A stretch of DNA of 64,000 bases from Erwinia sp. E602 (GTDB taxonomy: Bacteria > Pseudomonadota > Gammaproteobacteria > Enterobacterales > Enterobacteriaceae). Below the pieces are notes generated by a model, which worked only from the letters and a program-made list of their open reading frames with translations, did not search any database and was not told where the DNA came from. Shown piece after piece: positions 14,308 through 39,117 of the stretch. The number at the start of each line of letters is the position of its first letter. Within the stretch, counting starts at the first letter, position 1. A program made the position numbers and the translations under genes. The stretch is taken from the NCBI RefSeq assembly GCF_018141005.1, contig NZ_CP046582.1:4154001-4218000 (forward strand). The letters run 5' to 3'.

Positions 14308-14310
14308 CGG

Positions 14311-15483
14311 TCAGACCTTGAAGATCAGCTGCGAGTTGACCCGCTCAGAGTTAGCCCGGTTGCGGAACTGCAGCTGGTTAATCTGCACGTTGGTGCAGTT
14401 GGCCTGCTCGCGCGCCGCCAGAATTTTACCGTGATGCTCTGATTTGCTGCATACCGGGTCGGCGTTATCGGCGTTGCCGGTCAGCATAAAGGCCTGGCAG
14501 CGGCAGCCGCCGAAATCCTTCTCTTTTTCTGAACAGGAGCGGCACGGCTCCGGCATCCAGTCAAAGCCGCGATAGCGGTTAAAGCCGAACGAGTTAAACC
14601 AGATGTCGTCCAGGCTCTGCTCCAGTACCGACGGGAACTGCACCGGCAGCTGGCGGGCGCTGTGGCACGGCAGCGCGGTGCCTTCCGGCGTGACGCTGAG
14701 GAAGATTGCCCCCCAGCCGCCCATGCAGCCTTTCGGCCGTTCTTCGTAGTAATCCGGCGTCACAAACAGCAGGTTGGCCAGGTTGTCGCTGGCCGCCATC
14801 TTCTCGCGGTAGCGGTGCACCACCGCTTCGGCACGCTCCAGCTGATCGCGGGTCGGTAGCAGCCCTTCGCGGTTAAGCTGCGCCCAGCCGTAAAACTGGC
14901 AGGTGGCCAGCTCAACGTCATCTGCTTCCAGCTCGATGCACAGCTCAATAATCCGGTCGATCTGATCGATATTGTGGCGGTGCAGCACAAAGTTAAGCAC
15001 CATCGGGTAGCCGTGCGCCTTTACCGCTTTCGCCATTTCCAGCTTCTGCTGGAAGGCTTTCTTTGATCCTGCCAGCGCGGCGTTCAGCGTTTCGTCACTG
15101 GCCTGGAAGCTGATCTGAATATGATCCAGCCCGGCTTCGGCAAAGGCGTCGATCTTCTTCTGCGTCAGGCCGATGCCGGAGGTGATCAGGTTGGTATAGA
15201 AGCCGAGATCGCGGGCGGCGCGGATCAGCTCAGGCAGATCCTTACGCACCAGCGGTTCACCGCCGGAGAAGCCGATCTGCACCGCGCCCATCGCCCGCGC
15301 CTGTTTAAACACCTCGATCCACTGGGCGGTGGTCAGCTCTTTTTCCTGCTGCGCGAAGTCCAGCGGGTTAGAGCAGTACGGGCACTGCAGCGGGCAGCGA
15401 TAGGTCAGCTCGGCCAGCAGCCACAGCGGCGGCTTTACGCCGGTATCAGTCTGCTTCACGTAAAATAATCCACTTCTGCTCAC
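14311..15483 (-). CDS. pqqE: PqqE radical SAM enzyme
   Basis: Forms the Glu-Tyr carbon-carbon crosslink in PqqA. The radical SAM cluster motif CPLQCPYC follows WLLAELTYR, the GGEP motif is present (FSGGEPL), and the SPASM region with extra cluster cysteines is visible ([17 protein letters not shown], then VCSKSEH). The longest frame starts at a GTG at 15483 and overlaps pqqD by 38 bp; the GTG at 15459 gives [15 protein letters not shown], closer to other PqqE starts, and may be the true one. Confidence 0.96.
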
Positions 15484-15727
15484 GCGCCGCCGCGAAGAAA
15501 TCGGTCACGTCATCATCGACGCCGCCCGCCTCCGGAAAACGGGTGTTCAGCGCCTGAATAATCTCTGCCAGGCTGCGTTTGCCGTCGACCAGTTCGAGGA
15601 TCATCGCCGCGCTCTCGTTGAGTTTCGCCATGCCTTCCGGGTAGAGGATCACATGGCAGTTCTGTACCTCTTCCCACTGCAGGCGGTAGCCGCGGCGGAA
15701 CGTCGGGATAGTTTGCGGGTTGCTCAC
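15446..15727 (-). CDS. pqqD: PqqD peptide chaperone
   Basis: 93 residues; binds PqqA and presents it to PqqE. Family pattern [42 protein letters not shown] and the C-terminal [17 protein letters not shown] are all present. This is the prototype of the RiPP recognition element fold. The ATG overlaps the end of pqqC. Confidence 0.96.
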
Positions 15728-16479
15728 AGCAGTTTTCCTTTATGCCAGACCGGCTGGTCGGTAACGGTATGATAAGGCGCACGGTTCAGGGAGTAGGCCA
15801 TGGTCATCGCGTCCAGCATGGTCCACAGGATGTCCAGCTTGAACTGCAGGATCTCCAGCATGCGCTGCTGTTTTTCCACCGTATTGCAGTACTCCAGCGC
15901 CAGCTGCAGCCCGTGCTCCACGTCGCGCCGCGCCTGGCTCAGGCGGCCGCGGAAGTAGCCGTAGCCCTCCTCTTCGATCCAGCCGTAGTGCTGCGGCCAG
16001 CTGTCGAGGCGCGACTGGTGGATCTCCGGGGCAAACAGCTCGGTTAGCGAGCTGCAGGCCGCTTCCTGCCACACCGCACGGCGGGCAAAGTTGACATAGG
16101 CATCCACCGCAAAGCGCACGCCGGGCAGCACCAGCCGCTCGGAGAGCAGTACGTCACGCTCCAGCCCCACTGCTTCGCCCAGCCGCAGCCAGGCTTCAAT
16201 GCCGCCGTCGCTGTCGTCATGGCCGTCGTGATCGAGGATGCGCTGCACCCACTTGCGGCGCGTCAGCGCATCCGGGCAGTTGGCCATGATCGCCGCGTCT
16301 TTCAGCGGGATATTAGTCTGGTAGTAAAAGCGGTTCGCTACCCAGCCCTGGATCTGTTCACGGGTCGCCTCGCCGTTATGCATGGCGATATGGTACGGGT
16401 GATGAATATGGTAGTACGCGCCGCGGGCGCGCAGCGCCTGCTCGAACTGCTCAGGCGTCATCAGTGCGGGTTGGGTCAT
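15724..16479 (-). CDS. pqqC: PqqC, final oxidase of PQQ synthesis
   Basis: 251 residues, the family length. A cofactorless oxidase with a TenA/heme-oxygenase-like fold that closes the ring and oxidises the intermediate to PQQ. Family features: [16 protein letters not shown] near the N-terminus, [19 protein letters not shown], and [17 protein letters not shown]. The start overlaps the pqqB stop. Confidence 0.97.
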
Positions 16480-17387
16480 AGTTCAATACTCATGCCGTCG
16501 TAGCTGACCTCAATGCCCCGGCGGGTCAGCGCTGCGCGCTCGGCCGATGACTCATCAAGGATAGGGTTGGTGTTATTAATATGGATCAGAATTTTGCGTT
16601 TCACCGGCAGCTGGCTCAGTACGCCCATCAGCCCCTGCTCTTCGCCCAGCGCCAGGTGGCCCATATCACGGCCGGTATTGCGGCCGACGCCGGTATTCGC
16701 CAGCTCGTTATCCTGCCACAGCGTGCCGTCGATCAGCAGGCAGTCGGCGCTGGCCATCAGCGCGAGCAGTGCGGCATCCGGTTCGCCCAGCCCCGGGGCG
16801 TATAACAGCTTAGCGCCGCTGTCGCGGTTTTCGATCATCAGCGCAATATTGTGGCCGGGCAGCGGACGCCCGCGATACGGCGAGTACGGCGGCGCGTTGC
16901 TGAGGATCGGGATGGCGGTGAACTGCAGCGCCGGACAAACGGCGACGGAAAACGGCTCGGCCGGCGCGATCGGATGGTGGATCAACCCGCCGTTCCAGTG
17001 CGACAGCATGGTAAAGATCGGGAAGCCGCTGGTCAGGTCGCCGTGTACTTCCGGCGTGCACCAGACGTGGTGCGGGCAGCCTTCGCGCAGATTGAGCAGG
17101 CCGGTGCAGTGGTCAATCTGGCTGTCGGTGAGAATAATCGAGCCAATTGCGGTACCGCGCAGCACACCGTGCCGGTTCAGCTCCGGGTTGGCGGCAATCT
17201 GCTGGCTGATATCCGGCGAGGCGTTACACAACACCCAGTCGGTGCCGTTGTCGCTGACCGCGATCGAGGACTGGGTGCGCGGGGTGGCGGGAATGCTGCC
17301 GTCACGCACGCCCTGGCAGTTACGGCAGTTGCAGTTCCACTGCGGGAAACCACCGCCGGCCGCAGAGCCGAGTACTTTGATTTTCAT
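16476..17387 (-). CDS. pqqB: PqqB metallo-beta-lactamase-fold hydroxylase
   Basis: 303 residues. PqqB acts after the E-catalysed crosslink and is thought to hydroxylate the tyrosine moiety. The start [20 protein letters not shown] with NCRNCQG is the family signature, and SQIDHCTGL replaces the usual lactamase HxHxDH. It is separated from pqqA by an attenuator-like hairpin. Confidence 0.97.
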
Positions 17388-26266: not shown

Positions 26267-26776
26267 TTATCCAACCATCCGCCGGCGCAGATCGCGGCGG
26301 AACACCTCAATCGTCCACATCCACAGAATATGCCCGAGGGTTTCCGAGATGAGCTCATCGGCGGGCAGCTGCCACAGCGGCGGCGCCCAGCCGAACAGCG
26401 GCAGCATTACGCCGTGAAAACCCACGGTCACCAGCAGCGCAAAAGCCACCCCCTGCCAAAGCTTCACCGCCGGAAAGATCTCCACCAGCCAGCAGTAGAG
26501 CATGGCGAAGAAGATTGAGAACAGATGGTGCACCCCGGCCACGCCCCAGTTCACCATATGTTCAGACCAGCGATAAATCATTCCGCCGCTGTTAAAACCC
26601 AGATCGTCCAGCATTTCCGCCGGTGGAATTGCCCGGCCGGGGGTACGCGGAGGCAGCGGGTTTTCCGTGCCCCACTTGACAAAGCTGGCGATGTTGCCGC
26701 CGAAAAAACCGGCGATTAAGGCAGGGATAAAGTGGCGGTCGTTTTTTTTCGTGCGGCTGAACAGCGTGTTACTCAT
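26267..26776 (-). CDS. yagU: YagU-family inner-membrane protein (DUF1440)
   Basis: 169 residues from the ATG at 26776 (MSNTLFSRTKKNDRH), with AAGGA upstream. Several hydrophobic segments (HFIPALIAGFFGGNIASFVK, GVAGVHHLFSIFFAMLYCWL, WQGVAFALLVTVGFHGVMLP). In E. coli YagU is linked to acid survival; the mechanism is unknown. Fragments of a second yagU-like gene flank the mobile island downstream. Confidence 0.88.
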   Translation of the reverse strand: MSNTLFSRTKKNDRHFIPALIAGFFGGNIASFVKWGTENPLPPRTPGRAIPPAEMLDDLGFNSGGMIYRWSEHMVNWGVAGVHHLFSIFFAMLYCWLVEIFPAVKLWQGVAFALLVTVGFHGVMLPLFGWAPPLWQLPADELISETLGHILWMWTIEVFRRDLRRRMVG

Positions 26777-26998
26777 GGTGTCTTTCCTTGGACGGTTAGT
26801 ATCGCCGCCGAAGTGTAATGGAACCCTTAGCCTGTTTTTACGCAAAGATGGCGAAACGGTTATCCCTGAAAAACTCGCGAAAATAACGTTAACAAACTGA
26901 TGTATCTGCTCAGTAACCCCGCTGTCTGCCTAACAGCCAGGCTGCAATTGTGGTAATCAACGGCAAGGACTTCTATCCCCATCAGGGAGGTACACCGC

Positions 26999-27901
26999 AT
27001 GTCTGTCGGCAGATACGTCACGCTTATCCGTTATTCCCTGCGGCTGTTACTGCGCCCGCATCCTCGACTGTCATCGCTGTTTATTGTGCTGATCGTCTTG
27101 CAGGGCATTATTCCTTCAGCCAGCGTGATCGCCAGTATTCGTCTTGGCGATCTGGTCGGCCACGGTACACATAATCAGCTGTTAACCGCCTGCCTGATTT
27201 GGGCATTTACCCTGGTTTTGCCCGAAATGATTGCACCGCTGCTCAGCACCTTGCAAAGCGTACTGAATCAAAAAGCCACCCAGCTCACGCAGCATAAAAT
27301 CATGTCCGCCGTCGCGCATATTGACGATCTGCAGACGATTGAAGGCCCGGAATTGCATGACAGCCTGCAGATGCTGTCGAAAGAAGCCGCCTACCGCCCG
27401 CTCAATCTGCTGGTGAACCTGGTCGATATCTGCAGAAGTAGCTTCACGCTGCTCTCTCTGGCGCTGGTGCTGGCCAGCGTCGCCTGGTGGCTGCCGCTGG
27501 CACTGCTGCTGCCTGCCATCCCGGTTGCGGCTTCCGTTGCCCGCTCACAGCTGGATGTTTTCAGGGCGCTGCTGGGCAACGGGAAAACGGCGCGTCTGAT
27601 CGGCTACTATTTTTCCGTTATCGTCGACGTGAAGCTTGCCAGGGAGATTAAGCTGTTCGGCCTGGCGGACTTTTTTATCGCCAGGCACCGTGCGGCCTTT
27701 GCGGAGATGGATGGCATACTGAAAAAGACCAGAAGAAACCAGTTTCTGCGGCCGCAGAAATGGAATCTGCTGTATTTGATCTCGGCAATGGGGATCATGT
27801 TGTGGTTTTCTGATTATCTCGCCAGCGGAAAAATCTCGACCGGTGAGTTGCTTGGCACGCTTCACAGTCTTTCGCCTGTCCGCCTGCCTGCTATCCTGTA
27901 G
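26999..27901 (+). pseudogene. ABC exporter, 5' half only (transmembrane domain)
   Basis: Good start (GGGAGGT seven bases before ATG 26999) and GC-rich host-like codon use. Codons 1 to ~287 encode the membrane domain of a half-size ABC exporter (LFIVLIVLQGIIPSASVIAS, LASVAWWLPLALLLPAIP). It matches the decayed homologue at 37091-38855 up to LLGTL (~27860), then runs into unrelated sequence and stops. No nucleotide-binding domain follows. The missing GC-rich 3' end appears at 38466-38855, after the island. Confidence 0.85.
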
Positions 27902-27917
27902 CTGCCTGGATACCGGA

Positions 27918-28106
27918 TTATGCGGTCATCCGCTGGCACAGATCGCGGCGGAATACTTCAATCGTTCACACCCCGAGAACAGGCCCGAGGGTTTCCGCCA
28001 CCCTATCACCGGCGGGCAGCTGCTACTGTGGCAGCGCCCAGCCGAACAGCAGTAGCACTGCCGTGAAGCCTCCGGTCATCAGTAATGCAATGGCTACTCC
28101 CTGCCA
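27918..28106 (-). pseudogene. yagU-like relic, 3' part
   Basis: Closely resembles 26270-26455 of yagU (shared CAGATCGCGGCGGAA, GGGCAGCTGC and GCGCCCAGCCGAACAGC), but with substitutions and indels. The match breaks off at the edge of the island and continues at 36559. Confidence 0.85.
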
Positions 28107-28115: not shown

Positions 28116-28287
28116 AAGGGCGGAATCCAACTTTTTTGTGTGGCTATTATGCGTTAAAAACACACATTCCCTGATTGAAAAACAGCCTTTTCATCGAGCT
28201 ATACCGATTGATTTCTCATAAATGATTCGCAGGAATAATCAAAAATCGGATTGTGATTAAAAAGCAAACAAAGCAGAATCCCGCCCT
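28116..28287. mobile_element. MITE-like element, left copy
   Basis: ~172 bp without coding capacity, ends AGGGCGGAATCC and AATCCCGCCCTG, which form an imperfect terminal inverted repeat. About 85% alike to 36375-36548 by eye and in the same orientation; the shared core includes CCTTTTCATCGAG, ATACCGATTGATTTCTCATA and TTCGCAGGAATAATCAAAAA. Bases 28288-28594 beyond it are AT-rich with no supported gene. Confidence 0.8.
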
Positions 28288-28594
28288 GAATGTTGCAGCG
28301 GTATTTCCTTCACAAGACGAGATGCCCGAACGCTTACGAACTGGTTGAGATCTTGAGGATTTTTAAGATTTTTGGCCATTTCGTTAGCCAGAGCCTGCAA
28401 TTGTTTTTCTTCCATAATTCAACCTGTTTTTGATGTTGGATTGAACATATAAAAATCAGGCAGATACACAAAACTTTAAACAGGCTCAACCAATCATAGC
28501 TCTAATCAGGTGATCTTCGGTTGTATTTCGACCTTTTTTGATTGAAAAATGATCAAAAATGTAGATACCTAGGGGACACGCCATAGTGAAAAGT

Positions 28595-29047
28595 CTATTT
28601 AGGTTGTCGGTAAACGTTAGGCCTGACAATTTGCCATACAAAATTATCACGATTTACTGGGTCGTATCCCATTTTTTCGTATAGCCACGGAGCTGTCGAT
28701 GTGACTAACATAATTCTTCGTAGGTGTGTCATAACAGGGTGAGACATGCAACATTCCATAAGCCAACGTCCTAATTTCATTTTTTGCCACTCTTCCAAAA
28801 CATAAACATCACAAAGATAGCCAAATGTAGTGCTATCGGTAACTACACGAGCGAAACCAATTTGCTCGTTACCATCAAAGAGCCCAAAACAAAGGCTATT
28901 GCATATACTTTTCCTTACTGTGTCAATATCAATTCCTCCAGCCCAGGTTGAGCGGGTTAAGTAGCTATGAATAGCCTCGATATCAAACTGTTCAGAGTCT
29001 GTAGTGATATTATAATTTTGGTAATTCCAAGCATGAATACTTTTCAT
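28595..29047 (-). CDS. GNAT acetyltransferase of the island
   Basis: 150 residues. Acetyl-CoA loop area VYVLEEWQKMKLGRWLMECC and C-terminal half RIMLVTSTAPWLYEKMGYDP; N-terminal ITTDSEQFDIEAIHSYLTRS is shared by a common GNAT subgroup. Last gene of the operon, 22 bp after the MFS gene. It could acetylate the product (self-protection) or act as a tailoring enzyme. Low GC, like its neighbours. Confidence 0.82.
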   Translation of the reverse strand: MKSIHAWNYQNYNITTDSEQFDIEAIHSYLTRSTWAGGIDIDTVRKSICNSLCFGLFDGNEQIGFARVVTDSTTFGYLCDVYVLEEWQKMKLGRWLMECCMSHPVMTHLRRIMLVTSTAPWLYEKMGYDPVNRDNFVWQIVRPNVYRQPK

Positions 29048-29069
29048 ATTCTTATTCCATTTCTGATTA

Positions 29070-30302
29070 TTAACTGATTTTCTTCTCAGACTGGTCTGTT
29101 AATCCCTTCTGCTGAGAAAAGAGCAACGCCATCACAAGAGATATAACGGCGATTATTCCACAAAGCGTCCATAATCCCTGTGGATTAGCAACATTAACTC
29201 CTAAAAAATGACCAGCAAAAGAATTTCCCACAACGCCACCAATCAGTCCAGCAATCCCGAGCACACCATAAGCTGTGCCTAACAGACTGTCAGGAACATG
29301 TTCACTTGTGATCGCATCGATTGTTGGATCGATAGTAACTTCCCCCAAAGTATAACAGGCAATAATAAAGACAAATATCCATAGTTCAGTTGCTATGCCC
29401 ATCCCACTAAAGCAGAGGGTAAAAGCCAGAAAGCCAGCCCCAATTGTCCACCAATGTGATAGCCATTTGTTCAGCCAGACGTTCACAATAACCTGTAATA
29501 GTATGACAACCGCTGCATTGACAATAAAAAGCGCAGATACTGCCATCGCCCCCCATTGTTGCGAGGCAAAAATCGGGAAAGAACTCTCAAGCTGCATGTA
29601 GAGAAAACTGAAGGCAATATACAGTATGCAGGTAGCCAAGAAGACTGGTTTTTTACTGAGATAGATGAGAGTTTGCTTTGTGCCAACTGAACCAGAATGC
29701 CCTTCAGTGTTCAGCAGAGTAGTCTCCGATGGCTGAATTTTCAGTGTAAACAATAACGCTAACGCGATAAGTTGGCTGGCGGCTGCGGTTAGAAAAAAAC
29801 TGGCACTGTCTGCGTCCATAAAAAACCCGCCAATACTGCTACCGATAGCAACACCAATGTTGTTAACCGTACTGCGAAATGAAAACAATAGCACTTTATT
29901 GCTTCCGACTGACACCTTAGCGACTAACGCCTTGGCCGCTGGAGTAAATAATCCTTTGCTGATACCAATGCTGAGACTCAAACAACATATGATCCAGTGA
30001 ACAGGTTCAGCAACCAGGAAAATTAAATATGTCGTTATTTGAAGAGTCAGGCCACATTTCATAGTGAAATTAGCGCTAATTCTATCCGTCATCAAACCAC
30101 CAACGAATGTTGCTCCATACTGCCCAACCAGAAAGAGAGAGAGCTGTAAGGTTGCAAATTCGGCTGAAAGGTGTTGATGGCGCACTAAATAAACCACTAG
30201 AAATGGAATAACAGAAAAATAACCAATGGATGTCAGCCATTGAACAAATAACACCTTGCAGGTGTTAGGAGAAAATTGACGAATTTCAAGAAATATGGAC
30301 AT
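29070..30302 (-). CDS. MFS exporter of the island
   Basis: 410 residues, 12 membrane helices, DHA1-type drug/metabolite efflux pattern (FLVGQYGATFVGGLMTDRIS for the loop 2-3 motif). The ATG directly follows the ATP-grasp stop codon, so it is translated from the same message. Likely exports the pathway product. Confidence 0.87.
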   Translation of the reverse strand: MSIFLEIRQFSPNTCKVLFVQWLTSIGYFSVIPFLVVYLVRHQHLSAEFATLQLSLFLVGQYGATFVGGLMTDRISANFTMKCGLTLQITTYLIFLVAEPVHWIICCLSLSIGISKGLFTPAAKALVAKVSVGSNKVLLFSFRSTVNNIGVAIGSSIGGFFMDADSASFFLTAAASQLIALALLFTLKIQPSETTLLNTEGHSGSVGTKQTLIYLSKKPVFLATCILYIAFSFLYMQLESSFPIFASQQWGAMAVSALFIVNAAVVILLQVIVNVWLNKWLSHWWTIGAGFLAFTLCFSGMGIATELWIFVFIIACYTLGEVTIDPTIDAITSEHVPDSLLGTAYGVLGIAGLIGGVVGNSFAGHFLGVNVANPQGLWTLCGIIAVISLVMALLFSQQKGLTDQSEKKIS

Positions 30303-31457
30303 TTATGATACCTTCGTAAGAGATAGCATTTGCAATATGCGCCATTCAAGTTCTTGAGGCGTATCTGCATCAACAATGAATCCCCCATGACGGTGGAAAG
30401 AATCCATCAATTGAGGGATTTGCATCCCTTTATAAAGTGTCCACTCGTGCCAACGTACCCATTCTGGTGGAGAGTCAAACGGATGTTGATATGATTCGAC
30501 TTCTCCAGCAGAGAATTGGAAATAAGTAATCGCTGCGCAGCGGCCATAATCTGTGGGGAACGATACAGCCTGATTGGAAAATAATTGTATGCAAGCTTTT
30601 ATCATATCAAACCCCGTTGCCAACTCGACCAACTGCCATATCCGATCACCACCCGGGCGGTTATGACATTCGATCAGATATAGAATATTGCCATCCCTCT
30701 TCACTTCAATATGACCTACGCCATCGCTCATACCAATATGGTCAAGCACAGTGAACACCCAGTCCCGTAGTTCAGGATCATTCGCTACATTGGCATGTAT
30801 ACAATGCCCGATCTCTACAACGCCGGACGTACCGCCTAGTTTTTTTTCCGTAACCGCAACTAGATGATGCTGGCCGTTAACCGTGAACGTCTCGCAACTA
30901 TACTCCTGTCCTGGCGCAAAACTTTCCACCATCCATTCTTCACCTAGTTCTGGCAATAGCTTATCTAAATTATTCAGGATCGAGACCTGTTGACTACCGG
31001 TTGCGAACCGTGGTTTTAGAACCACCGGGAACTGATGTTCGAGAATGAAGGCTTCCACTTTCGCCGTAGTTTCTGCTTTGCTGAAGGGCACATTGTTGGC
31101 TAGGGTAGATGCCAAAGCCTGACGTGTGCGAAGCTTGTCACGGCAAATCAGTGAACAACGCAAAGGAGGACCCGGGATTAGTAGAATGGCAGCAATGACT
31201 GCCGCAGGTTCCATACCATATTCGGTGAACGAAATGACAAAATCAAAGGCACGGAAAGTATGTTCATCCCCAGCCGCCAGTAATACGGCGGGGAAATCAT
31301 CCAAACGAGCCAATAATACTTTTCGGGCATGCTCATATTGAAATGCTGTAACCCGTGAAGATTCTGTCAGAATAGTGATATCTATATTACAGTCAAGTGC
31401 TTTTCTGAAGTAATCGTCAGTTGGCCCCAATAAAAGCATATGTTTTTTATCTAGCAT
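30303..31457 (-). CDS. ATP-grasp carboxylate-amine ligase
   Basis: 384 residues from ATG 31457, chosen for AGAGG seven bases upstream. ATP-grasp features: FPVVLKPRFATGSQQV (P-loop-like strand with Lys), EEWMVESFAPGQEYSCETF, and the metal-binding end GHIEVKRDGNILYLIECHNRPGGD. Such enzymes couple ATP cleavage to amide formation between a carboxylate and an amine, as in L-amino acid ligases. It resembles those more than the graspetide macrocyclases. Overlaps the aminotransferase by 11 bp. Confidence 0.85.
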   Translation of the reverse strand: MLDKKHMLLLGPTDDYFRKALDCNIDITILTESSRVTAFQYEHARKVLLARLDDFPAVLLAAGDEHTFRAFDFVISFTEYGMEPAAVIAAILLIPGPPLRCSLICRDKLRTRQALASTLANNVPFSKAETTAKVEAFILEHQFPVVLKPRFATGSQQVSILNNLDKLLPELGEEWMVESFAPGQEYSCETFTVNGQHHLVAVTEKKLGGTSGVVEIGHCIHANVANDPELRDWVFTVLDHIGMSDGVGHIEVKRDGNILYLIECHNRPGGDRIWQLVELATGFDMIKACIQLFSNQAVSFPTDYGRCAAITYFQFSAGEVESYQHPFDSPPEWVRWHEWTLYKGMQIPQLMDSFHRHGGFIVDADTPQELEWRILQMLSLTKVS

Positions 31458-32697
31458 TGGATACCTCTTCACAGACGTATTCAATAACTTCACACAGACG
31501 ATCTTGCGACTCCGTAGTTTGGCTCAACGCACAAATAATTTTCAAAGTATCGGGCTGATGACTGCATATCGTTGTCAATATTTTATTGGCATACAGGTAA
31601 CGCCAAACTTCATTTGCTAAATCAGCAGTGGTGAAACGTAGAAAATGCAGGTTTGTCAGCGACAGAACGTTTACTAAAGAAGATGGATGTGTTTTTGCAA
31701 GTTCGCTTAGTTGGGCAGCAAAATGTGCTTGGGGTAAATTTCCCTCACAATCTGAAAGCACAGGTTCCAGGAGAGCGAGAACTTCAAGCGCGACGCTTTG
31801 CCCCAGTGGATTACCAGAAAAGGTAGATGATAGCAGTTTTGAACAGCCTGGCCGGCACGTGAACGCATTAAATAGTACTTGTCGGACAACTAACTGAGCT
31901 GATGGAATCAAACCTCCAGTCAGTGTTTTAGATAACAGGATCATATCTGGTTCAACGCGCCAGCCTAAAGCTTGCATTGCGCTGTAGTCACCACAACGCC
32001 CTATACCAGTAAAAATTTCATCGGTAATAAATAACGACCCGTAACGCGTACAACCGGTGCGTAGACGTTCCGCTTCATCAGCATTTAGGATTCGCCCCCC
32101 TGCAATGGCCTGTACAGGCTCAACCAACAACGCCGCATAGCGTTCGCTGGCAAGTAATTGGTTCCCCTCATCAACATCATCAAAGAAGTCCACAAGGACG
32201 CTTTCCGTCAATACCTCATAGCCCTTGCGCCAGAATGTTCGATCGTTTAACTGCAAAGTAAATGCTGTAAGTCCATGAAATGCGCGACGACGAACCAATA
32301 TTTTTCGACGACCTGTCGAGGATACGGCAATTTTCAATGCCGCCTCTACAGCCTCTGCACCAGTGGAAAGGGTCCAATTGTTCCAATTTCCTCTAAGTTG
32401 TAGACGCTCAATGAGAGTCTTTGCCAGGCTTGGAGCCAAAGTCGTGATCCCTAAGGGAGCCCCTGCCGGGAGTTGTGCATTTAATGCACGTTTCAATGCC
32501 TTGGTCAAAGGTTCAAAACTGTGGCCAAACAGTGTTGCTCCATAGTGGCCGATAAAGTCAAACCAGACATTATCCTCAGTGTCGTACAGACGATCACCTT
32601 GTGCTTTGACAAAAATAGGTACGGTTCCGAGCGCACTCAGGGTGTCCACCCATCCTTGGTTTACATAGTGTGAGTAGTCCTGCAACAAGGTGCTCAT
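31447..32697 (-). CDS. Class III PLP-dependent aminotransferase
   Basis: 416 residues from ATG 32697 (overlaps the previous TGA). PLP pocket: TLSTGAEAVEAALKIA, the Asp motif FITDEIFTGIGRCG, and the Schiff-base lysine in MILLSKTLTGG. Class III enzymes aminate aldehydes or ketones on side-chain positions. In this context it may act on a carbonyl made by the di-iron proteins, as the class III enzyme of daptide pathways does (inference). Confidence 0.9.
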   Translation of the reverse strand: MSTLLQDYSHYVNQGWVDTLSALGTVPIFVKAQGDRLYDTEDNVWFDFIGHYGATLFGHSFEPLTKALKRALNAQLPAGAPLGITTLAPSLAKTLIERLQLRGNWNNWTLSTGAEAVEAALKIAVSSTGRRKILVRRRAFHGLTAFTLQLNDRTFWRKGYEVLTESVLVDFFDDVDEGNQLLASERYAALLVEPVQAIAGGRILNADEAERLRTGCTRYGSLFITDEIFTGIGRCGDYSAMQALGWRVEPDMILLSKTLTGGLIPSAQLVVRQVLFNAFTCRPGCSKLLSSTFSGNPLGQSVALEVLALLEPVLSDCEGNLPQAHFAAQLSELAKTHPSSLVNVLSLTNLHFLRFTTADLANEVWRYLYANKILTTICSHQPDTLKIICALSQTTESQDRLCEVIEYVCEEVSNAR

Positions 32698-34109
32698 GAA
32701 TGCAAAAAATCCTTCATGGCAAAGTTTAAGGCGGGCCGATTCATTGTAACATGCAGCTTTTCCAATTCCTCCCATGTGCGCCAAGTCATTTCCAGCAGCA
32801 ATCCATAACAGTCGCGTGCTATTTGCTGTGTCTTAACACTTTGTTCTCCACATTCGGCAAGGAGAAGACGGGAGATATAGGGGTGGAAGAGCTTTTCGTT
32901 TAGTGTCTCATGTTTGCGAGAATTTTCGTTCACTTCCTCAGTAAAAACTCCTGAGTTCGCCACCGCCTCGTTGATGATGTTTGGCTGACCAGGTAGCCCT
33001 TCAGTTATCGTGGCCGCAGCAGCATAGGCAATAACGTGATTGCCAGCAAGCCATGTATAGGTATCACAAAGTAGTTGGGCACAAGGCGTCGGGATCGCAC
33101 TATGTATTTCATCCTCATTTAAGCCCAAAGCAAGACAGGTTCGCAGTTCATAAGATTCATGTCCCATTTCTTCGCTATAGTAGCGGCGAAGAAGCCTCTT
33201 GAGAGGACGAGGTAAACGGAGTGCCATTGCATTTGATACCAAATCGATAAAGCGCTCTGTAATATAATATTCTTGCGCATACACAGCCTGGATAAGCGTC
33301 TGCTGAGCACCATGTTCATTAGTCTGCAAAGCAGAGGCGAACTTGGCAGGTCCGAAACCTTCCAGCGAATCTTTTGCCCACCTTTCCAACCGCAAAGCCA
33401 AGTTTGTTCCAGAGTCAGGTGCTTCGATCAGCAATTCTGGGAATGCTTTACGGGTTGAATCTTCATCAAGGCTCCTGGTTAATGACCACGTGATAACAGA
33501 AAGGCACTTACGAACCTCACCGGCCCAGAAAGCGGTAAGGTCAATTTTTGGTTCAATACTATCGCTACCAGTCAAACGTAAAAGTAAATGACGTGTTACA
33601 TTAACTGCTGGAGGACACAACTGTTCCCACGACAGTAAAGAAATTTTCCCATACAGAAGAAACGAGTTATTTTCATGAGCTAGAATATCCGTGATATCTT
33701 CACTTTTGAGACTGTTGCTAAACGTCAGAAGCTCTGTCGCCGGTATGCGCAGGGCACTTTCCAAAGAACTAAGTGTGTCGAGTGCTTCGTCGAGAACTTT
33801 CTCGATAAGAATCTGTTTCTTGGCTAGTGTATGTTCTGGTGATGTTTCCCGTATAAATCCATATTCATGCAATACGTCTAGCACCTTCTTTTCGTCACTA
33901 TCTTCAAGCACATGACTCATTGCTTCCCAGCTATTTTGGCATCCTTCACTCAATGACTTGAGTAATCCTAATAACTTATCTGGTTCATCACTTGTAATTT
34001 CTATCTCAGGGTAGTCTTCACCAATCTCAATTATCCCCTGAGCATTTTTTACCAGTATCGGGGCATGCAATACTGGCTTGATATAATGGCTTAGGCTCCA
34101 CTGTTCCAT
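32694..34109 (-). CDS. RRE-like + heme-oxygenase-like di-iron protein 3 (divergent)
   Basis: 472 residues. Residues ~1-90 resemble a PqqD-like winged helix (LLGLLKSLSEGCQNSW...KKVLDVLHEYGFIRET). The C-terminal half has a heme-oxygenase-like helical core: AQEYYITE (E280), RRYYSEEMGHESYEL (E313/E314, H317), and NENSRKHETL (H400). Compared with its two neighbours it lacks the His of the first E-x-x-H helix (Ile283) and the Glu three before H400, so it may be a partner or a mononuclear variant. An extra ~130 residues lie between the domains. The start is 8 bp after the preceding stop. Confidence 0.72.
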   Translation of the reverse strand: MEQWSLSHYIKPVLHAPILVKNAQGIIEIGEDYPEIEITSDEPDKLLGLLKSLSEGCQNSWEAMSHVLEDSDEKKVLDVLHEYGFIRETSPEHTLAKKQILIEKVLDEALDTLSSLESALRIPATELLTFSNSLKSEDITDILAHENNSFLLYGKISLLSWEQLCPPAVNVTRHLLLRLTGSDSIEPKIDLTAFWAGEVRKCLSVITWSLTRSLDEDSTRKAFPELLIEAPDSGTNLALRLERWAKDSLEGFGPAKFASALQTNEHGAQQTLIQAVYAQEYYITERFIDLVSNAMALRLPRPLKRLLRRYYSEEMGHESYELRTCLALGLNEDEIHSAIPTPCAQLLCDTYTWLAGNHVIAYAAAATITEGLPGQPNIINEAVANSGVFTEEVNENSRKHETLNEKLFHPYISRLLLAECGEQSVKTQQIARDCYGLLLEMTWRTWEELEKLHVTMNRPALNFAMKDFLHS

Positions 34110-34117
34110 GATATTCC

Positions 34118-35104
34118 TCACGCAAAAATTCGTAATTCCAGATCGGATTCGTAGGTACTGCAGATTTGGGCATCCCATATCTTCATGGTTTCCAATAACG
34201 TCATGATATGCACCAATGTAACGCGAGCCTCTTCCGCCGATATGGCTGAAATATGCCCGAGCAATTCATCAGTAATCAGATGATGCCCACCTTCTTCATT
34301 GACGGCTGAATGCACGGCTATTGGTTTCCAAAATCCTTCAGGAAGATCTAGTGCCTTGCAGGTTTTTACAAATATCAAATTGAATTCTGGATAAGGTTCT
34401 TCGAACAAAAATAGTGCGGAGATAAAGCTCAGAAGATGTTGGCGCCCAAATGTCCCAAGAGTGCAGTAAACAGAGAATGTACTAGAAAGTGGTGTGGTTT
34501 CCTTCACTTTCTCCTCTGAGATCCCTGCAGCAGAGAGCGCTTTGAGTAACAAGGTCTCATGATCGTGTTCTTCAAGAAAAAGTTGTTTTATTCCTTGCGA
34601 AATAGGGTCCGGACATTTATGAGACATTGCTGGCGCTATAATTGAAGGTGCAGCCTTGACAATGTGATAATATTCAATTGCAAAACCAATCAGTTGAGAG
34701 CGTGTAGCCAGTCCTTCACTCATTGCAGTGTAGAGCGCAGAAGTACCCAATTGTGCATGCCATGCGAGAGAGTAGCGTTTCAGTTTGTTAGCAAATTGCT
34801 TACCTGACAAAGTATCACTGATAATTGGGTAGTGACTTTCTGTCAGAAGATAGTGGTTATCAAACTGGACGATGAGATCCTCGATTTCGTTCGCTAATGC
34901 TGGGTAAGCAGATTTTAGCTCAACCAGTGTTTTCCCTCCCTTTTGTAGGTCTAAAAGAAAATTATCTAGCGTGTTATCATTCTGTTCCACAGTAAGCACC
35001 ACACTTTGCTGACGGTAGTCAATATGATACTCTTCTTCATGGCGAGTATATGACACGCCATTACGAAAACGTGGGATAGTGAAACGTTGGTGAGAGGTCT
35101 GCAT
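34118..35104 (-). CDS. RRE-like + heme-oxygenase-like di-iron protein 2
   Basis: 328 residues. N-terminal ~95 residues again look PqqD-like (LDNFLLDLQKGGKTLVELKS...EDLIVQFDNHYLLTE). The C-terminal domain has a full candidate metal set: AIEYYH (E144, H147), FLEEHDHETLLL (E178/E179, H182), AVHSAVNEEGGHH (H265, E271, H274). This pattern fits the Haem_oxygenas_2/iron-containing redox enzyme family, whose studied members oxidise or cleave amine and fatty-acid substrates with O2. GGAG precedes the ATG. Confidence 0.78.
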   Translation of the reverse strand: MQTSHQRFTIPRFRNGVSYTRHEEEYHIDYRQQSVVLTVEQNDNTLDNFLLDLQKGGKTLVELKSAYPALANEIEDLIVQFDNHYLLTESHYPIISDTLSGKQFANKLKRYSLAWHAQLGTSALYTAMSEGLATRSQLIGFAIEYYHIVKAAPSIIAPAMSHKCPDPISQGIKQLFLEEHDHETLLLKALSAAGISEEKVKETTPLSSTFSVYCTLGTFGRQHLLSFISALFLFEEPYPEFNLIFVKTCKALDLPEGFWKPIAVHSAVNEEGGHHLITDELLGHISAISAEEARVTLVHIMTLLETMKIWDAQICSTYESDLELRIFA

Positions 35105-35121
35105 GACGAACTCCGTTTACA

Positions 35122-36099
35122 TTAAATATTGGATAGGCGACGAAGCAAAGGTTTATTGTCATTTGAATAATAATTCCAAACAGCACTGTGGAAATCATCA
35201 TATAACTCAACAAATAGACGGGTGTTAGCAATCATACTTTTCATCTGGTCGTTTCGGACTACAGGGATTTCGTGAAAGAGTTCACGGGTCAGTATCCCAT
35301 GCTCAGCTTCAATATTTATATTAGCATGCGCCTTGATAGGATTAATAAAATCCGGGGAGATGCCCCCGCTATTTTCCATTGCAAGAATATAGCTATCGAC
35401 CTTTATATCCTTCCCTTCAAGGATACCCATAGTACTGAAGAAAAACAGCGGATCATTTGCAGACCAATAGGCAAGTGCGTTACAAAGCGCTAAAGTTTCT
35501 GGCAATGGTAGCGTTTCTGCCATATCTCCTCTGGAAATATCGAGGTGATTTAATGCATTAAGAATAAGTTCGTCATGTCCATACTCTTCGCCATAAAACT
35601 CATTCATAATGAGTCTTGCTTTGGTTGAGGGTAAATAGCTAAGAACCGGTGAATCAAACCAACTTTCACGGAATAAAAAGTGATAGTTTTCAATGGCCAT
35701 GCCGTAATAGACTTTTTTGGGTACTTCTCTCGGTGATTGCATCGCTTGCCAGAACTTATTTTGGTAAAGCGTTGAATACAATAGACTGGCTTGGAGATCT
35801 TCCAAAAGCAAGATAGCCTCATCACCAGAGATAAACTGTTCTCCAGAATCATTGACATATCCGTTTTGATTTTCTATCAAAGCACTGAGAAACTCTGTAA
35901 CTTCTTCGTTACAAATTCCTGGATGTTTTTCCAGAATCTTTTTCAACGGAGTCGTCCCATCACATGCATCGATTACTGCGTTCCAAGTGCTCAGGTCTCC
36001 CGAAAGATTTTCGACAGTGAAGCATAGGTCTTTATCATTGAATACAAAACCTGAATCAGTTTGTTCCAAATGGCCTGAGATAGCGTAATTTTTTTCCAT
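35122..36099 (-). CDS. RRE-like + heme-oxygenase-like di-iron protein 1
   Basis: 325 residues from ATG 36099 (AGAGAG upstream; an in-frame TTG at 36117 is less likely). N-terminus: FTVENLSGDLSTWNAVIDAC then DGTTPLKKILEKHPG and EVTEFLSALIE, a clear PqqD-like pattern. C-terminal metal residues: AIENYHF (E137, H140), FYGEEYGHDEL (E171/E172, H175), AHANINIEAEHG (H258, E264, H267). First enzyme gene after the candidate precursor. PqqC, encoded elsewhere in this window, has a related fold. Confidence 0.8.
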   Translation of the reverse strand: MEKNYAISGHLEQTDSGFVFNDKDLCFTVENLSGDLSTWNAVIDACDGTTPLKKILEKHPGICNEEVTEFLSALIENQNGYVNDSGEQFISGDEAILLLEDLQASLLYSTLYQNKFWQAMQSPREVPKKVYYGMAIENYHFLFRESWFDSPVLSYLPSTKARLIMNEFYGEEYGHDELILNALNHLDISRGDMAETLPLPETLALCNALAYWSANDPLFFFSTMGILEGKDIKVDSYILAMENSGGISPDFINPIKAHANINIEAEHGILTRELFHEIPVVRNDQMKSMIANTRLFVELYDDFHSAVWNYYSNDNKPLLRRLSNI

Positions 36100-36118
36100 A
36101 AGTCTCTCTGCCTGCAAT

Positions 36119-36146
36119 AAAAACAGTCAGCTGATCGGCTGACTGT
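36119..36146 (-). terminator. Terminator/attenuator after the precursor gene
   Basis: Minus strand: ACAGTCAGC, 6-base loop, GCTGACTGT, then TTTT. A perfect 9-bp stem 11 bp past the precursor stop and 20 bp before the first enzyme start, a layout that lets a peptide be made in excess over its enzymes, as in many RiPP operons and in pqqA-pqqB here. Confidence 0.8.
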
Positions 36147-36156
36147 TTTGGAGTGT

Positions 36157-36264
36157 TTACAGATGAGCAGCCATCAGAATTGGGCGATCACTTTTCGGTT
36201 TTATAACAACCTTGGCTTTCTGGTTGCTAGAGGTGTTCGGAGTACTGTTTACTTGTTTGTCCAT
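36157..36264 (-). CDS. Candidate precursor peptide (35 aa) of a RiPP-like pathway
   Basis: Starts MDKQVNSTPNTSSNQKAK and ends VVIKPKSDRPILMAAHL. GGAG lies 6 bases upstream. Hydrophilic Asn/Ser/Lys-rich N-terminus and a short hydrophobic C-terminus (RPILMAAHL), as expected of leader and core. No Cys; few modifiable side chains in the tail other than His, Met and Leu, so oxidation or C-terminal change is more plausible than thioether chemistry. First gene of the operon, followed by a terminator hairpin. No database match has been checked. Confidence 0.65.
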   Translation of the reverse strand: MDKQVNSTPNTSSNQKAKVVIKPKSDRPILMAAHL

Positions 36265-36374: not shown

Positions 36375-36548
36375 CAGGGCGGGATTTAGCTCTTTTTGTT
36401 TAGCTATTATGAGTTAAAAACACGCATTCCCTGATTAAAAAATAGCCTTTTCATCGAGTTATACCGATTGATTTCTCATAAGCAATTCGCAGGAATAATC
36501 AAAAATCAGGTTGTGGTAAAAAAGAAAGCAAAATGGAATCCCGCCCTG
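36375..36548. mobile_element. MITE-like element, right copy
   Basis: 174 bp with perfect 12-bp terminal inverted repeats CAGGGCGGGATT / AATCCCGCCCTG. Better preserved than the left copy at its ends. No transposase is present, so mobility would need one supplied in trans. Confidence 0.85.
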
Positions 36549-36558: not shown

Positions 36559-36665
36559 CTACCGGGAAGATCTCCACCAGCAAGCAGTAGAGCATGGCAA
36601 AGAACATCGAGCACAGGTGGTGTACCCTTGCCACGCCCCATGTCACCGCATGTTCTGACCCACGT
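36559..36665 (-). pseudogene. yagU-like relic, middle part
   Basis: Resembles 26470-26575 of yagU (GAAGATCTCCACCAGC, AGCAGTAGAGCATGGC, CCACGCCCCA). It is the direct continuation of the relic at 27918-28106. The next 36666-36862 holds GC-rich non-coding sequence with a small hairpin (AACTCGCCTTCGGGGAGTT) that I cannot assign. Confidence 0.85.
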
Positions 36666-36862
36666 TGTTTAGAGTCTGATTCATCAGGCTGATCTACTTG
36701 CTATTTTGCACCCGGGCAGTGCTCAGACAAACTCGCCTTCGGGGAGTTTGAAGGCACTTCAAATGCGGCCGCAGGGTGAGCGAAACGAATCATCCTCACG
36801 TATTTGGTGTACGCTTCAGTTTTTCCGCGCTGCCCGTGTCCGAAGTAGAATTATTTTAATTT

Positions 36863-36979
36863 ATGGATATTAATACCATTCCATTTCTCATAAATTCATA
36901 CGAGGATATCGTTGATGCTCAGGGCATCGAAACCATCAAATTGAAGGAAAGGAAAGTTTCAATCACACTGAAAAAATAA
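36863..36979 (+). CDS. Small hypothetical ORF (38 aa)
   Basis: MDINTIPFLINSYEDIVDAQ, ending KVSITLKK. No clear ribosome-binding site. It lies 111 bp upstream of the decayed ABC exporter gene on the same strand; it might be a peptide cargo, or chance coding in AT-rich DNA. Confidence 0.25.
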   Translation: MDINTIPFLINSYEDIVDAQGIETIKLKERKVSITLKK

Positions 36980-37090
36980 AACAATGGTATTTTTAAAGTT
37001 ATCTTGTGACTAAAATATTCGTAACCTTGCCCTGTCACGCTGAAAAAAAACAATAAAAAATGAAAAGTATTTAAATATTAAGGAGAGATC

Positions 37091-38855
37091 ATGAAAATAA
37101 AAAAAGACTGCAAACCACTAAGATATTCATTAAGGCTATTATTGATCTCTCACCCTAATCTATAAATATTATTCATAGTAATGGTAATAATTCAAGTCTT
37201 AATGCCGACAGCAAGTGTAATGGCAAGTATTCATTTAGGTAACCTTGTTAGCAATGGTTCTCACAGTAAACTACTTATCGCCTGCCTAATATGGGAATTC
37301 ACTTTTACCCCCCCTAAAATTATTGCGACTATAATAAGTACAACACAGAGCATCCTTAATCAAAAGTCAACACAATTGACACAGCATAAAATCATGTTAG
37401 CACTATCTCGCATTCAAGATTTAAAAATCATTGAGAGCAATGAAATACATGAAAAACTAGAAGTTTTATCTAAAGAAGCATCACACCGTCCATTAAACCT
37501 ATTGGTTAACTTGGTTGATATAATAAGAGGTACTTCAACTCTTTTATCAATGTCATTAGTATTAGCTAGTGTAGCATGGTGCTTACCCCTTGCATTGTTA
37601 TTTCCTGCAATTCCCGTCACTGTATCTGTGGCTCAATCTCAATTAGATATTTTTAAAGTTTTGCTTGGAAAAGGCATGACATCAAGACTGATTAGTTATT
37701 ATTTTTCAACAGCAATTGACGTTAGGCACTCTAAAGAAATTAAATTATTCAACCTGTCAGATTTATTTATAAATAAACATCGCGAGTCTTATGATTTAAT
37801 CAGCAAAGATCTTAATAATGTTAGAAAAGGTCAGACCATAAGACCACAAAAATGGAATTTGCTATACTTCATGTCTGCCATGGGTGTGATGCTTTGGTTT
37901 TCTGAATATATTTAAAAAGGTAATGTATCTACTGGTGGATTACTAGGCACCATACAATCAATCTGGCTCTTTGGTCTATCTTGCCAATGGATGGTATACT
38001 CATTTAGCAATCTTGGGATTTTTTTCTTTTTTCGAAAAGCTAATGGTTCTAAAAAAACACAACCAGCCACAAGATAACCATACCAAAAAAATACCAAAAA
38101 TAAAAATAACTTTCGAAAATGTTAGCTTTTGCATATAACGATAATAAAAAAATCATTTGCAACCTTAGTCTAAGAATAATGCAAGGCGATCACATCGCTA
38201 TTGTCGGAGAAAAGGTACTGGCAAAAACACTTTAATAAAATTACTCTGTAGATTATATGTACCCGATCAAGGAAGACTTACGATAGGTGGTATAGACATC
38301 AATGAAATTAACATACGGGAGTGGCATTCAACAATTAGTGTTATTTTTCAAAAGCTTGGCCATTACAAATTGACAATTGAGGAGGATTTTTTTATAGGGG
38401 ATTTAAGCTCAGATGTTACATCTAAAAAAGTCTCCATCGCTTGTCAAAAGGCGAAATTTAATTTACCCGAAGGGGTGAGTATAGACAGCCAGATCGGCAA
38501 AGAGTTTGACGGAACCGATCTCTCCGGCGGTGAGTGGCAGCGCCTGGCGCTGGCGCGGGCCTTTTATGCCGACAGGCCGCTGGTGATCCTCGATGAACCC
38601 ACCAGCGCGATGGACCCGCGCGTTGAATCCGAACTGTTCAGCCAGTTTGCCAGCATAATGGCCGGGAAAACGGCGGTGATGGTGACTCACCGGCTGGGCA
38701 GCGTAAGGAACGTTGATCGGGTGGTGGTGATGAAGGCGGGAAGGATCGTTGAGGAAGGGCCGCCTCAGGTGCTGGAAACGATGAACGGCGAATATGCTGA
38801 GCTGCTGGCGTTGCAGAAAAACCAGTACGCCGACAGGCCTGCATCGCGCGCCTGA
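37091..38855 (+). pseudogene. Decayed ABC exporter, AT-rich with a GC-rich 3' end
   Basis: Starts well (AAGGAG before ATG 37091) but has in-frame TAA at 37163 and 37913, a frameshift in a T-run near SFAY (~38130), and a broken Walker A (~38210). Up to about 38465 it is AT-rich and a diverged homologue of 26999-27860. From there to the end it is GC-rich and undamaged: signature LSGGEWQRLALARAF, Walker B VILDEPTSAMDP, switch His in MVTHRLGS. The junction is in frame, so it looks like recombination between two homologous exporters. Not expected to be functional. Confidence 0.88.
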
Positions 38856-38903
38856 CAATAAGCAGGCCATTGCCACCGTCCGCACCCCATCCCGCCACAT
38901 GAG

Positions 38904-38935
38904 CACACGGGCACACGGGCACACGGGCACACGGG
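38904..38935. repeat. (CACACGGG)4 tandem repeat
   Basis: Four perfect octamer copies just after the ABC remnant. Confidence 0.93.
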
Positions 38936-38942
38936 CATCCAG

Positions 38943-39022
38943 CCAAACAGCCAAACAGCCAAACAGCCAAACAGCCAAACAGCCAAACAGCCAAACAGCC
39001 AAACAGCCAAACAGCCAAACAG
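38943..39022. repeat. (CCAAACAG)10 tandem repeat
   Basis: Ten perfect octamers plus a partial copy, between the ABC remnant and the laccase-domain gene. Same unit length as the array at 9354, different sequence. Confidence 0.97.
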
Positions 39023-39117
39023 CCAAACTAACGTAACCAAAAAGCCACGCGGTTAACACGTTAAACGATTATCCTTGCTGGCAGGATAACGTTTTGCCCA
39101 TTTAACGAGGAGTCGCC

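Follow-up and report, generated by a model that had tools for sequence, protein, structure and literature searches.

In the 64,000-nucleotide stretch of Erwinia sp. E602 analysed here (contig NZ_CP046582.1 of assembly GCF_018141005.1, positions 4,154,001 to 4,218,000; hereafter the window), positions 28595-36264 carry a minus-strand operon of eight genes, one for a 35-residue peptide and seven for enzymes and transporters, with all reading frames open (Table 1). We describe it as a probable new class of the type of ribosomally synthesised and post-translationally modified peptides (RiPPs), marked by RiPP recognition elements (RREs), predicted here, that are fused to heme-oxygenase-like di-iron oxidases (HDO1, HDO2 and HDO3) and by a peptide with a C-terminal His-Leu (the HL peptide). 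The genes are separated, in gene order, by 57, 17 and 8 nt, then overlap by 4 and 11 nt, and are finally spaced by 0 and 22 nt; the initial annotation had proposed such a tightly packed operon with a 35-residue peptide and a terminator, and all its genes were found as placed, open and confirmed by Pfam. For HDO3, a start at 34109 is more likely than the longer form from 34178, since it is here that a Met and a conserved Trp line up with its relatives. The GNAT enzyme probably serves in tailoring or self-protection.

Table 1. Features of the operon and its immediate flanks, in window positions.
Feature	Position	Strand	Basis
Proposed 35-aa precursor/scaffold peptide, C-terminal end ...VVIKPKSDRPILMAAHL	36157..36264	-	HL ending in 41/42 related loci
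Codons of the C-terminal nonapeptide R-P-I-L-M-A-A-H-L	36160..36186	-	conserved C-terminal 14-mers
Hairpin between peptide and HDO1, T-rich at/after the 3' arm	36120..36149	-	minimum free energy -17.0 kcal/mol, z -3.2 against 60 shuffles
HDO1, 325 aa: RRE-like N-terminal domain fused to heme-oxygenase-like di-iron oxidase domain	35122..36099	-	
RRE-like domain of HDO1 (residues 1-88)	35836..36099	-	predicted fold
HDO2, 328 aa, architecture as HDO1	34118..35104	-	Pfam; ligand positions; N-terminus homologous to HDO1
HDO3, 471 aa: RRE-like N-terminus (by homology), unrecognised middle segment, HDO domain	32694..34109	-	Pfam; hhalign
Class III pyridoxal-phosphate aminotransferase	31447..32697	-	Aminotran_3, E 6.9e-44
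ATP-grasp ligase	30303..31457	-	ATP-grasp_4
Major facilitator superfamily (MFS) exporter	29070..30302	-	MFS_1, E 7.6e-41
GNAT N-acetyltransferase	28595..29047	-	Acetyltransf_7, E 1.8e-10
156-nt direct repeat, copy 1, just past the operon 3' end	28133..28288		
156-nt direct repeat, copy 2 (88% identical), just past the operon 5' end	36393..36548		

A conserved His-Leu peptide upstream of HDO1

Related loci were collected by scanning genome contigs with an alignment of HDO2, which gave 39, and by adding three plasmid loci, for a set of 42 that does not include two distant plasmid matches without the HDO triad (L009 and L010). Several of the contigs stop within or just after the cluster (among them those of L011, L022, L029, L037 and L042), so that later genes could be missed. 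At 41 of the 42 loci, in three phyla, a same-strand open reading frame (ORF) ending in P/T/I-x-hydrophobic-x(2-4)-H-L, usually in the form P-x-L-x3-H-L, lies upstream of HDO1. As the search pattern itself demanded HL, the invariance of these two residues is a property of the peptides found; only one locus lacks a match. This sole exception, in Nostoc mirabile (L024, 9603-10996), is a cyanobacterial remnant in which peptide and HDO1 are both lost: no peptide was found, a large internal deletion has left only pieces of both ends of HDO1 (judged by eye), and HDO2 is open. The peptide is also present in two further Pseudomonas genomes reached through HDO1. When these two and the window's own locus are counted with the 42, a looser form of the motif occurs 47 times in the 20,338 open segments of the 45 loci, 44 times at the expected site and three times elsewhere.

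Among 22 distinct C-terminal 14-mers, His at position -2 and Leu at -1 occur in all, and Pro at -8 and Leu at -6 in 21, with Rhodococcus deviating; the most conserved of the 14 positions all fall within the last nine. Comparison of the last 20 codons (counting the stop) shows three synonymous and no non-synonymous codon differences between the window and Photorhabdus tasmaniensis, and nine synonymous and one non-synonymous between the window and Chimaeribacter. Judged from these sequence comparisons, the peptide ORF is real and its association with the enzymes exceeds chance, which upholds the earlier proposal that the peptide is their partner. Short forms of the peptide are of the type K-V-V-I-K-P-K-x-x-R-P-x-L-x-x-x-H-L, while long forms of about 60 residues (Sphingomonas, Burkholderia, Dyella and Tistrella) differ in their first part but retain a comparable strand-like stretch ahead of the shared ending. 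No Pfam family matched the window peptide or four of its relatives at the limits used, and the single NCBIfam match given by five peptides lay far below its cut-off.

The spacer between peptide and HDO1 is structured at many loci, with z of -2.0 or lower in 24 of the 41 spacers folded (L007 and L024 were omitted). A hairpin after the peptide gene would allow the peptide to be made in excess, as a consumed substrate requires. At four Burkholderia/Paraburkholderia loci (L041-L044) the peptide is retained and the spacer is no more structured than its shuffles (z -0.2 to 0.5).

Predicted peptide-binding domains fused to di-iron oxidases

Since a PDB search with full-length HDO1 covered only residues 89-314, residues 1-88 were modelled alone, the one N-terminal domain of the three for which a structure was predicted. 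In the predicted fold the elements follow one another as in an RRE, and among solved structures an RRE matches it best, but the Foldseek E-values are weak and the second match is not an RRE. The N-termini of HDO1, HDO2 and HDO3 are mutually homologous (hhalign 94.0-95.8%), that of HDO2 matching that of HDO1 over 52 columns. Sequence profiles leave an RRE in these N-termini below threshold, and hhalign comparison of the three with PqqD, for which three loci gave one usable sequence, yielded 2.9%, 25.5% and 0.1%. The assignment of PqqD/RRE-like N-termini in the initial annotation draws its support from the predicted fold of HDO1, its best match and the homology of the other two, and not from sequence profiles. 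We predict that the N-terminal domain of HDO1 is an RRE-type peptide-binding domain, and that those of HDO2 and HDO3 are likewise by homology. Neither of the outcomes that the same annotation had named as speaking against it, enzymes always found without the peptide or N-termini without an RRE-like fold, was observed. HDO3 carries an additional, unrecognised middle segment (residues ~99-255), which matched neither the N-termini nor the families of HDO1 and HDO2 (hhalign 0.1-1.2%).

The C-terminal halves are HDO domains of the heme-oxygenase fold, as had been proposed for them: Haem_oxygenas_2 scores above cut-off in all three proteins, the PDB match of HDO1 covers this region, and an almost invariant ligand set, E-x2-H / E / H-x3-N-x4-H, is present. 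The positions E179, H182, E235, H265, N269 and H274 of HDO2 are kept in 42/42 rows, and E314, H317, E370, H400, N404 and H409 of HDO3 in 28/28, a count that omits ORFs of at least 560 residues and weak matches and is therefore lower than the 37 loci carrying HDO3. While the norm for HDOs is three His and three Glu/Asp, HDO1-3 keep three His and two Glu, with Asn as the sixth ligand position in all three families (in 119 of 120 HDO1 relatives among the matches listed, P0134 being unmatched); it aligns with D176 of the Pseudomonas HDO MboA. The metal sites of HDO1-3 are likely di-iron.

A conserved core with exchangeable partner enzymes

HDO3 is found at 37 of the 42 loci, a class III aminotransferase at 25, an EamA exporter at 16, a GNAT enzyme at 15, a MocR regulator at 11 (one weak), an MFS exporter at ten, an ATP-grasp ligase at eight (one of them a 59-bit remnant, in L012) and a GMC oxidoreductase at six. 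The conserved core is thus the peptide with HDO1 and HDO2, usually joined by HDO3, and the ligase and the GNAT enzyme are accessory; by these counts, neither these two nor the aminotransferase belongs to the core, which corrects the initial annotation. Five of the GMC genes adjoin the triad and one lies ~5.6 kb upstream of HDO1 (L036); no aminotransferase was seen at the five loci with an adjacent GMC gene, of which two lie on contigs that stop at that point. Aminotransferase and GMC genes are both absent from the six Sphingomonas loci. On plasmid pTM3 of Tistrella mobilis (L007, 7521-13251), HDO1 and HDO2 are apparently fused in one 691-residue ORF, and a gene for an enzyme dependent on thiamine pyrophosphate (TPP) stands between the peptide and HDO1. 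In a Chloroflexi metagenome-assembled genome (MAG; L031, 5672-8264), a gene for an ABC-2 type transporter membrane protein lies between HDO2 and HDO3, preceded by an ATPase-like ORF (by eye). HDO3 is missing from Rhodococcus and from one Enterobacterales MAG, both of which carry HDO1, HDO2 and an exporter; Rhodococcus has a GNAT gene as well.

Given these loci without HDO3 and the varied partner enzymes, HDO1 and HDO2 seem to be what the core reaction requires. As the partners (aminotransferase, GMC and TPP enzymes) belong to classes that act on alcohols, aldehydes and keto groups, their presence suggests that the HDOs introduce an alcohol or carbonyl into the peptide. K257 of the aminotransferase is kept in 96% of 24 aligned rows (window included), and the nearest solved relatives of the ATP-grasp ligase are L-amino acid ligases (BL00235, E 5.8e-8). 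Photorhabdus luminescens DSM 3368 carries a decayed copy (L012, 8832-11250), reduced to the peptide, an HDO1 missing a His ligand, HDO2 and the ligase remnant, and two Burkholderia clusters are accompanied by an additional, distant and divergent HDO gene on the minus strand (L043, 6906-8003; L044, 6929-8026; 58-63 bits to HDO2).

Comparison with described pathways

The biosynthesis of pyrroloquinoline quinone (PQQ) uses a ribosomal scaffold peptide (PqqA), an RRE (PqqD) and an enzyme of the heme-oxygenase fold (PqqC), which is not known to use a metal, and includes a radical SAM step and a Glu-Tyr crosslink. The HL-peptide operon shares the combination of ribosomal peptide, RRE (here a predicted one) and heme-oxygenase fold, and a natural PqqC-PqqD fusion exists (5vrd), although its domain order, judged by name, is the reverse of that in HDO1-3.

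MboA, the mangotoxin acetylenase of Pseudomonas (profile match E 0.0021), has the ligand spacing of HDO1-3 (E-x2-H / E / H-x3-x-x4-H), acts on the C-terminal residue of a peptide, as we propose for HDO1-3, and is encoded in a cluster with ATP-grasp ligases (PMC13185094). It differs by an Asp at the position of the Asn of HDO1-3, by working with a separate redox partner (MboB), and by its tripeptide substrate, which is made by ligases, no ribosomal peptide figuring in the passages considered (PMC13185094); its solved chain has 250 residues, against 325-471 for HDO1-3. Daptides show what we propose for the HL-peptide cluster, RRE-guided oxidation of an invariant C-terminal residue followed by a class III aminotransferase, but rely on an oxidative decarboxylase resembling alcohol dehydrogenases, a C-terminal Thr, a methyltransferase and a peptidase (PMC10036551). 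The peptides found here end in Leu instead of that invariant Thr, and Pfam revealed no such decarboxylase, methyltransferase or RRE-peptidase among the genes of the window operon. The thiovarsolin (var) cluster likewise has a ribosomal precursor, a heme-oxygenase-like oxidase (VarO, thought to introduce a double bond into an arginine side chain) and ATP-grasp and MFS genes, yet has a single HDO and leads by a YcaO/TfuA route to thioamidated peptides (PMC6511847). None of these three RiPP-type pathways, thiovarsolins, daptides and PQQ, joins RRE-HDO fusions with a C-terminal His-Leu.

The Pseudomonas gvg cluster for 4-formylaminooxyvinylglycine (FVG) is similar in its required Lys-rich small ORF (gvgB), HDO (gvgC), class III aminotransferase (gvgH), MocR regulator (gvgR) and small amino-acid product (PMC8067088, PMC8064604), but also contains carbamoyl- and formyltransferases. 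Of its core (GvgA, GvgB, GvgC and GvgF), the window operon has no carbamoyltransferase or GvgA-like gene, and its peptide and HDOs are unlike GvgB and GvgC. A strain with an HL-peptide cluster, Pseudomonas fluorescens P5A, also has a likely gvg cluster (L080, 1910-12512). There the likely GvgB ends in ...SSIYPMF rather than HL and the likely GvgC has no significant match to HDO1-3 by BLAST or hidden Markov models, and we rejected membership in the gvg group; the likely GvgH does match the aminotransferase family of the HL-peptide clusters. A GvgG-like ORF of 47 residues in this strain ends in HL, a single example that we treat as chance. In four further carbamoyltransferase loci (L081-L084), one orientation was scanned for Lys-rich or HL-ending ORFs with a length of 18-80 residues; L081 gave a GvgB-like Lys-rich ORF and one ending in KKHL (also treated as chance), and the other three gave none.

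Pfam identified no lantibiotic-dehydratase-like peptide aminoacyl-tRNA ligase (PEARL) in the window operon. Literature searches, with supplements and subscription journals outside their scope, showed no RRE-HDO fusion or matching gene set among the papers listed, in agreement with the initial annotation, which knew of no pathway with these genes. At least 25 unique clusters combining an HDO with an ATP-grasp ligase have been reported, and the HL-peptide cluster may be among them (PMC13185094); new RRE fusions, some given in a supplement, have also been described (PMC12710340).

A proposed route to a small product, and its alternatives

We consider it probable, though well short of assured, that the RRE-held HL peptide is oxidised at its C-terminal Leu (or His-Leu) by HDO1-3 and tailored into a small, exported, amino-acid-like antimetabolite. 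The strand-like K-V-V-I-K-P-K of the peptide is predicted to extend the sheet of the RRE, which would let the free C-terminus reach the metal site. The peptide substrate of MboA coordinates iron with its C-terminal carboxylate, and it is the C-terminal residue that becomes oxidised (PMC13185094); by analogy, the carboxylate of Leu would bind iron here and the HDOs would act serially on that residue. The resulting alcohol or carbonyl would be converted by lineage-specific enzymes, the aminotransferase presumably aminating a new carbonyl. Because no peptidase was detected by Pfam among the genes of the window operon, nor in the annotated Robbsia operon, the modified end would be released either by a peptidase of the host or through oxidative cleavage of the backbone, a reaction for which another RiPP enzyme provides a precedent (PMC12636437) and which would make a peptidase unnecessary. 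Optionally, the ATP-grasp ligase might couple the released unit to another amino acid; the MFS protein would export the product and the GNAT enzyme protect the producer. A small product is favoured by the EamA exporters, the kinship of the ligase to L-amino acid ligases, the GNAT enzymes, the MocR regulators, a type of gene that gvg has too (PMC8067088), and the concentration of conservation in the last nine residues, whereas the ABC-2 transporter of L031 may suggest a larger product. A bolder version, which we hold only tentatively and regard as somewhat unlikely, has the RRE-fused oxidases work in relay on the C-terminal Leu, remodelling its side chain and then excising it, through oxidative cleavage of the backbone, as a keto acid or aldehyde to be aminated to a free non-proteinogenic amino acid. 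If so, this would be a new class of ribosomal scaffold pathway, in which a gene-encoded residue becomes an amino-acid antimetabolite with no need of a non-ribosomal peptide synthetase, tRNA ligase or protease, and each molecule made uses up one peptide.

The modified peptide could instead itself be the product, as in a classical RiPP pathway in which the HDOs oxidise the C-terminus and the aminotransferase aminates it in the manner of daptides, before trimming of the N-terminus by a host protease and export through the MFS protein. Daptide logic applied to a C-terminal Leu (PMC10036551) would suit the conservation of the peptide and the predicted RRE fold, and the transporter of L031 fits as well, but the N-termini and lengths of the peptides vary widely, the most conserved positions lie within the last nine, the two operons lack a peptidase, and exporters, ligase kinship and regulators suggest a product of amino-acid size; we judge this reading unlikely. 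That the oxidases act on free substrate, with the peptide as an unmodified carrier or chaperone that merely assembles them, recalls the gvg pathway, which needs gvgB together with its HDO without known modification in the available account (PMC8067088); it accords poorly with the strict conservation of the last two residues and with a ligand spacing like that of MboA, an enzyme acting on the C-terminus of a peptide, and we give it hardly any credence.

The order of short ORF, hairpin and enzymes, with structured spacers at over half of the loci folded, would also suit a regulatory leader, in which ribosome arrest or attenuation acts on a terminator hairpin and the HDOs use free amino acids. 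We find this quite improbable, given that the TPP-enzyme gene of Tistrella separates peptide and HDO1, that L041-L044 keep the peptide with an unstructured spacer, that no run of more than two His or Leu codons was seen in the listed peptide ends, that HDO1 bears a predicted peptide-binding domain, and that the long peptide forms also conserve an N-terminal part. Very improbable, too, is a metallophore formed by the C-terminal His and oxidised neighbours, after the example of the HDO-made copper compound fluopsin C (PMC11363339): His is invariant in the peptides found and a TonB-dependent receptor gene lies downstream of the triad in Sphingomonas L039, but this gene family was seen in four Sphingomonas loci only, L039 has an intervening minus-strand ORF call before the triad, and the GNAT enzyme, ligase and amino-acid-type exporters elsewhere fit less well.

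Origin and genomic surroundings

The operon is probably horizontally acquired, to judge from its patchy occurrence, its base composition and its closest relative: it has a GC content of 43.3% against 57.3% in the rest of the window, is 92.8% identical to a contig of Photorhabdus tasmaniensis over 7,792 columns, and occurs in one of 37 genomes of the host genus. With the HDO1 alignment at E 1e-20, only the window's own genome was found among 398 of the phylum, six among 201 of Sphingomonas and three among 298 of Pseudomonas; the cluster is rare and scattered. An HDO1 profile has 343 protein relatives at E 1e-8 or better, possibly including paralogues. The direct repeats flanking the operon exist in just two copies in the host genome (5.17 Mb, two contigs).

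The operon appears to lie within a region that has been duplicated and broken (26267-28057 and 36562-37950). Pieces of a second copy of a DUF1440 gene (26267-26845) flank it at 27907-28057 and 36562-36660, and two look-alike ORFs without a Pfam match (26999-27901 and 37181-37915) lie outside or beside these pieces. Some 11 kb away, on the minus strand, is a PQQ operon (11173-17387) with genes for a PqqF-like M16 peptidase, PqqE, PqqC and PqqB, another ribosomal-peptide pathway with an enzyme of the heme-oxygenase fold; its peptidase could in principle act on the HL peptide. A short tandem repeat at 38794-39059 translates as SQTAKQPN repeats on the plus and LFGCLAVW repeats on the minus strand.

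Implications

If our interpretation is correct, the HL-peptide clusters of the three phyla would form a RiPP-type class of their own, recognisable by the fusion of RRE and HDO and by the C-terminal His-Leu, with a peptide and an RRE that escape the Pfam and NCBIfam models tried, and would join HDO chemistry on amino acids with ribosomal peptide scaffolds. The system also suggests how the required small ORFs of clusters such as gvg may work, and the exchange of downstream enzymes around a single conserved oxidative core leads us to expect a whole family of different small products.

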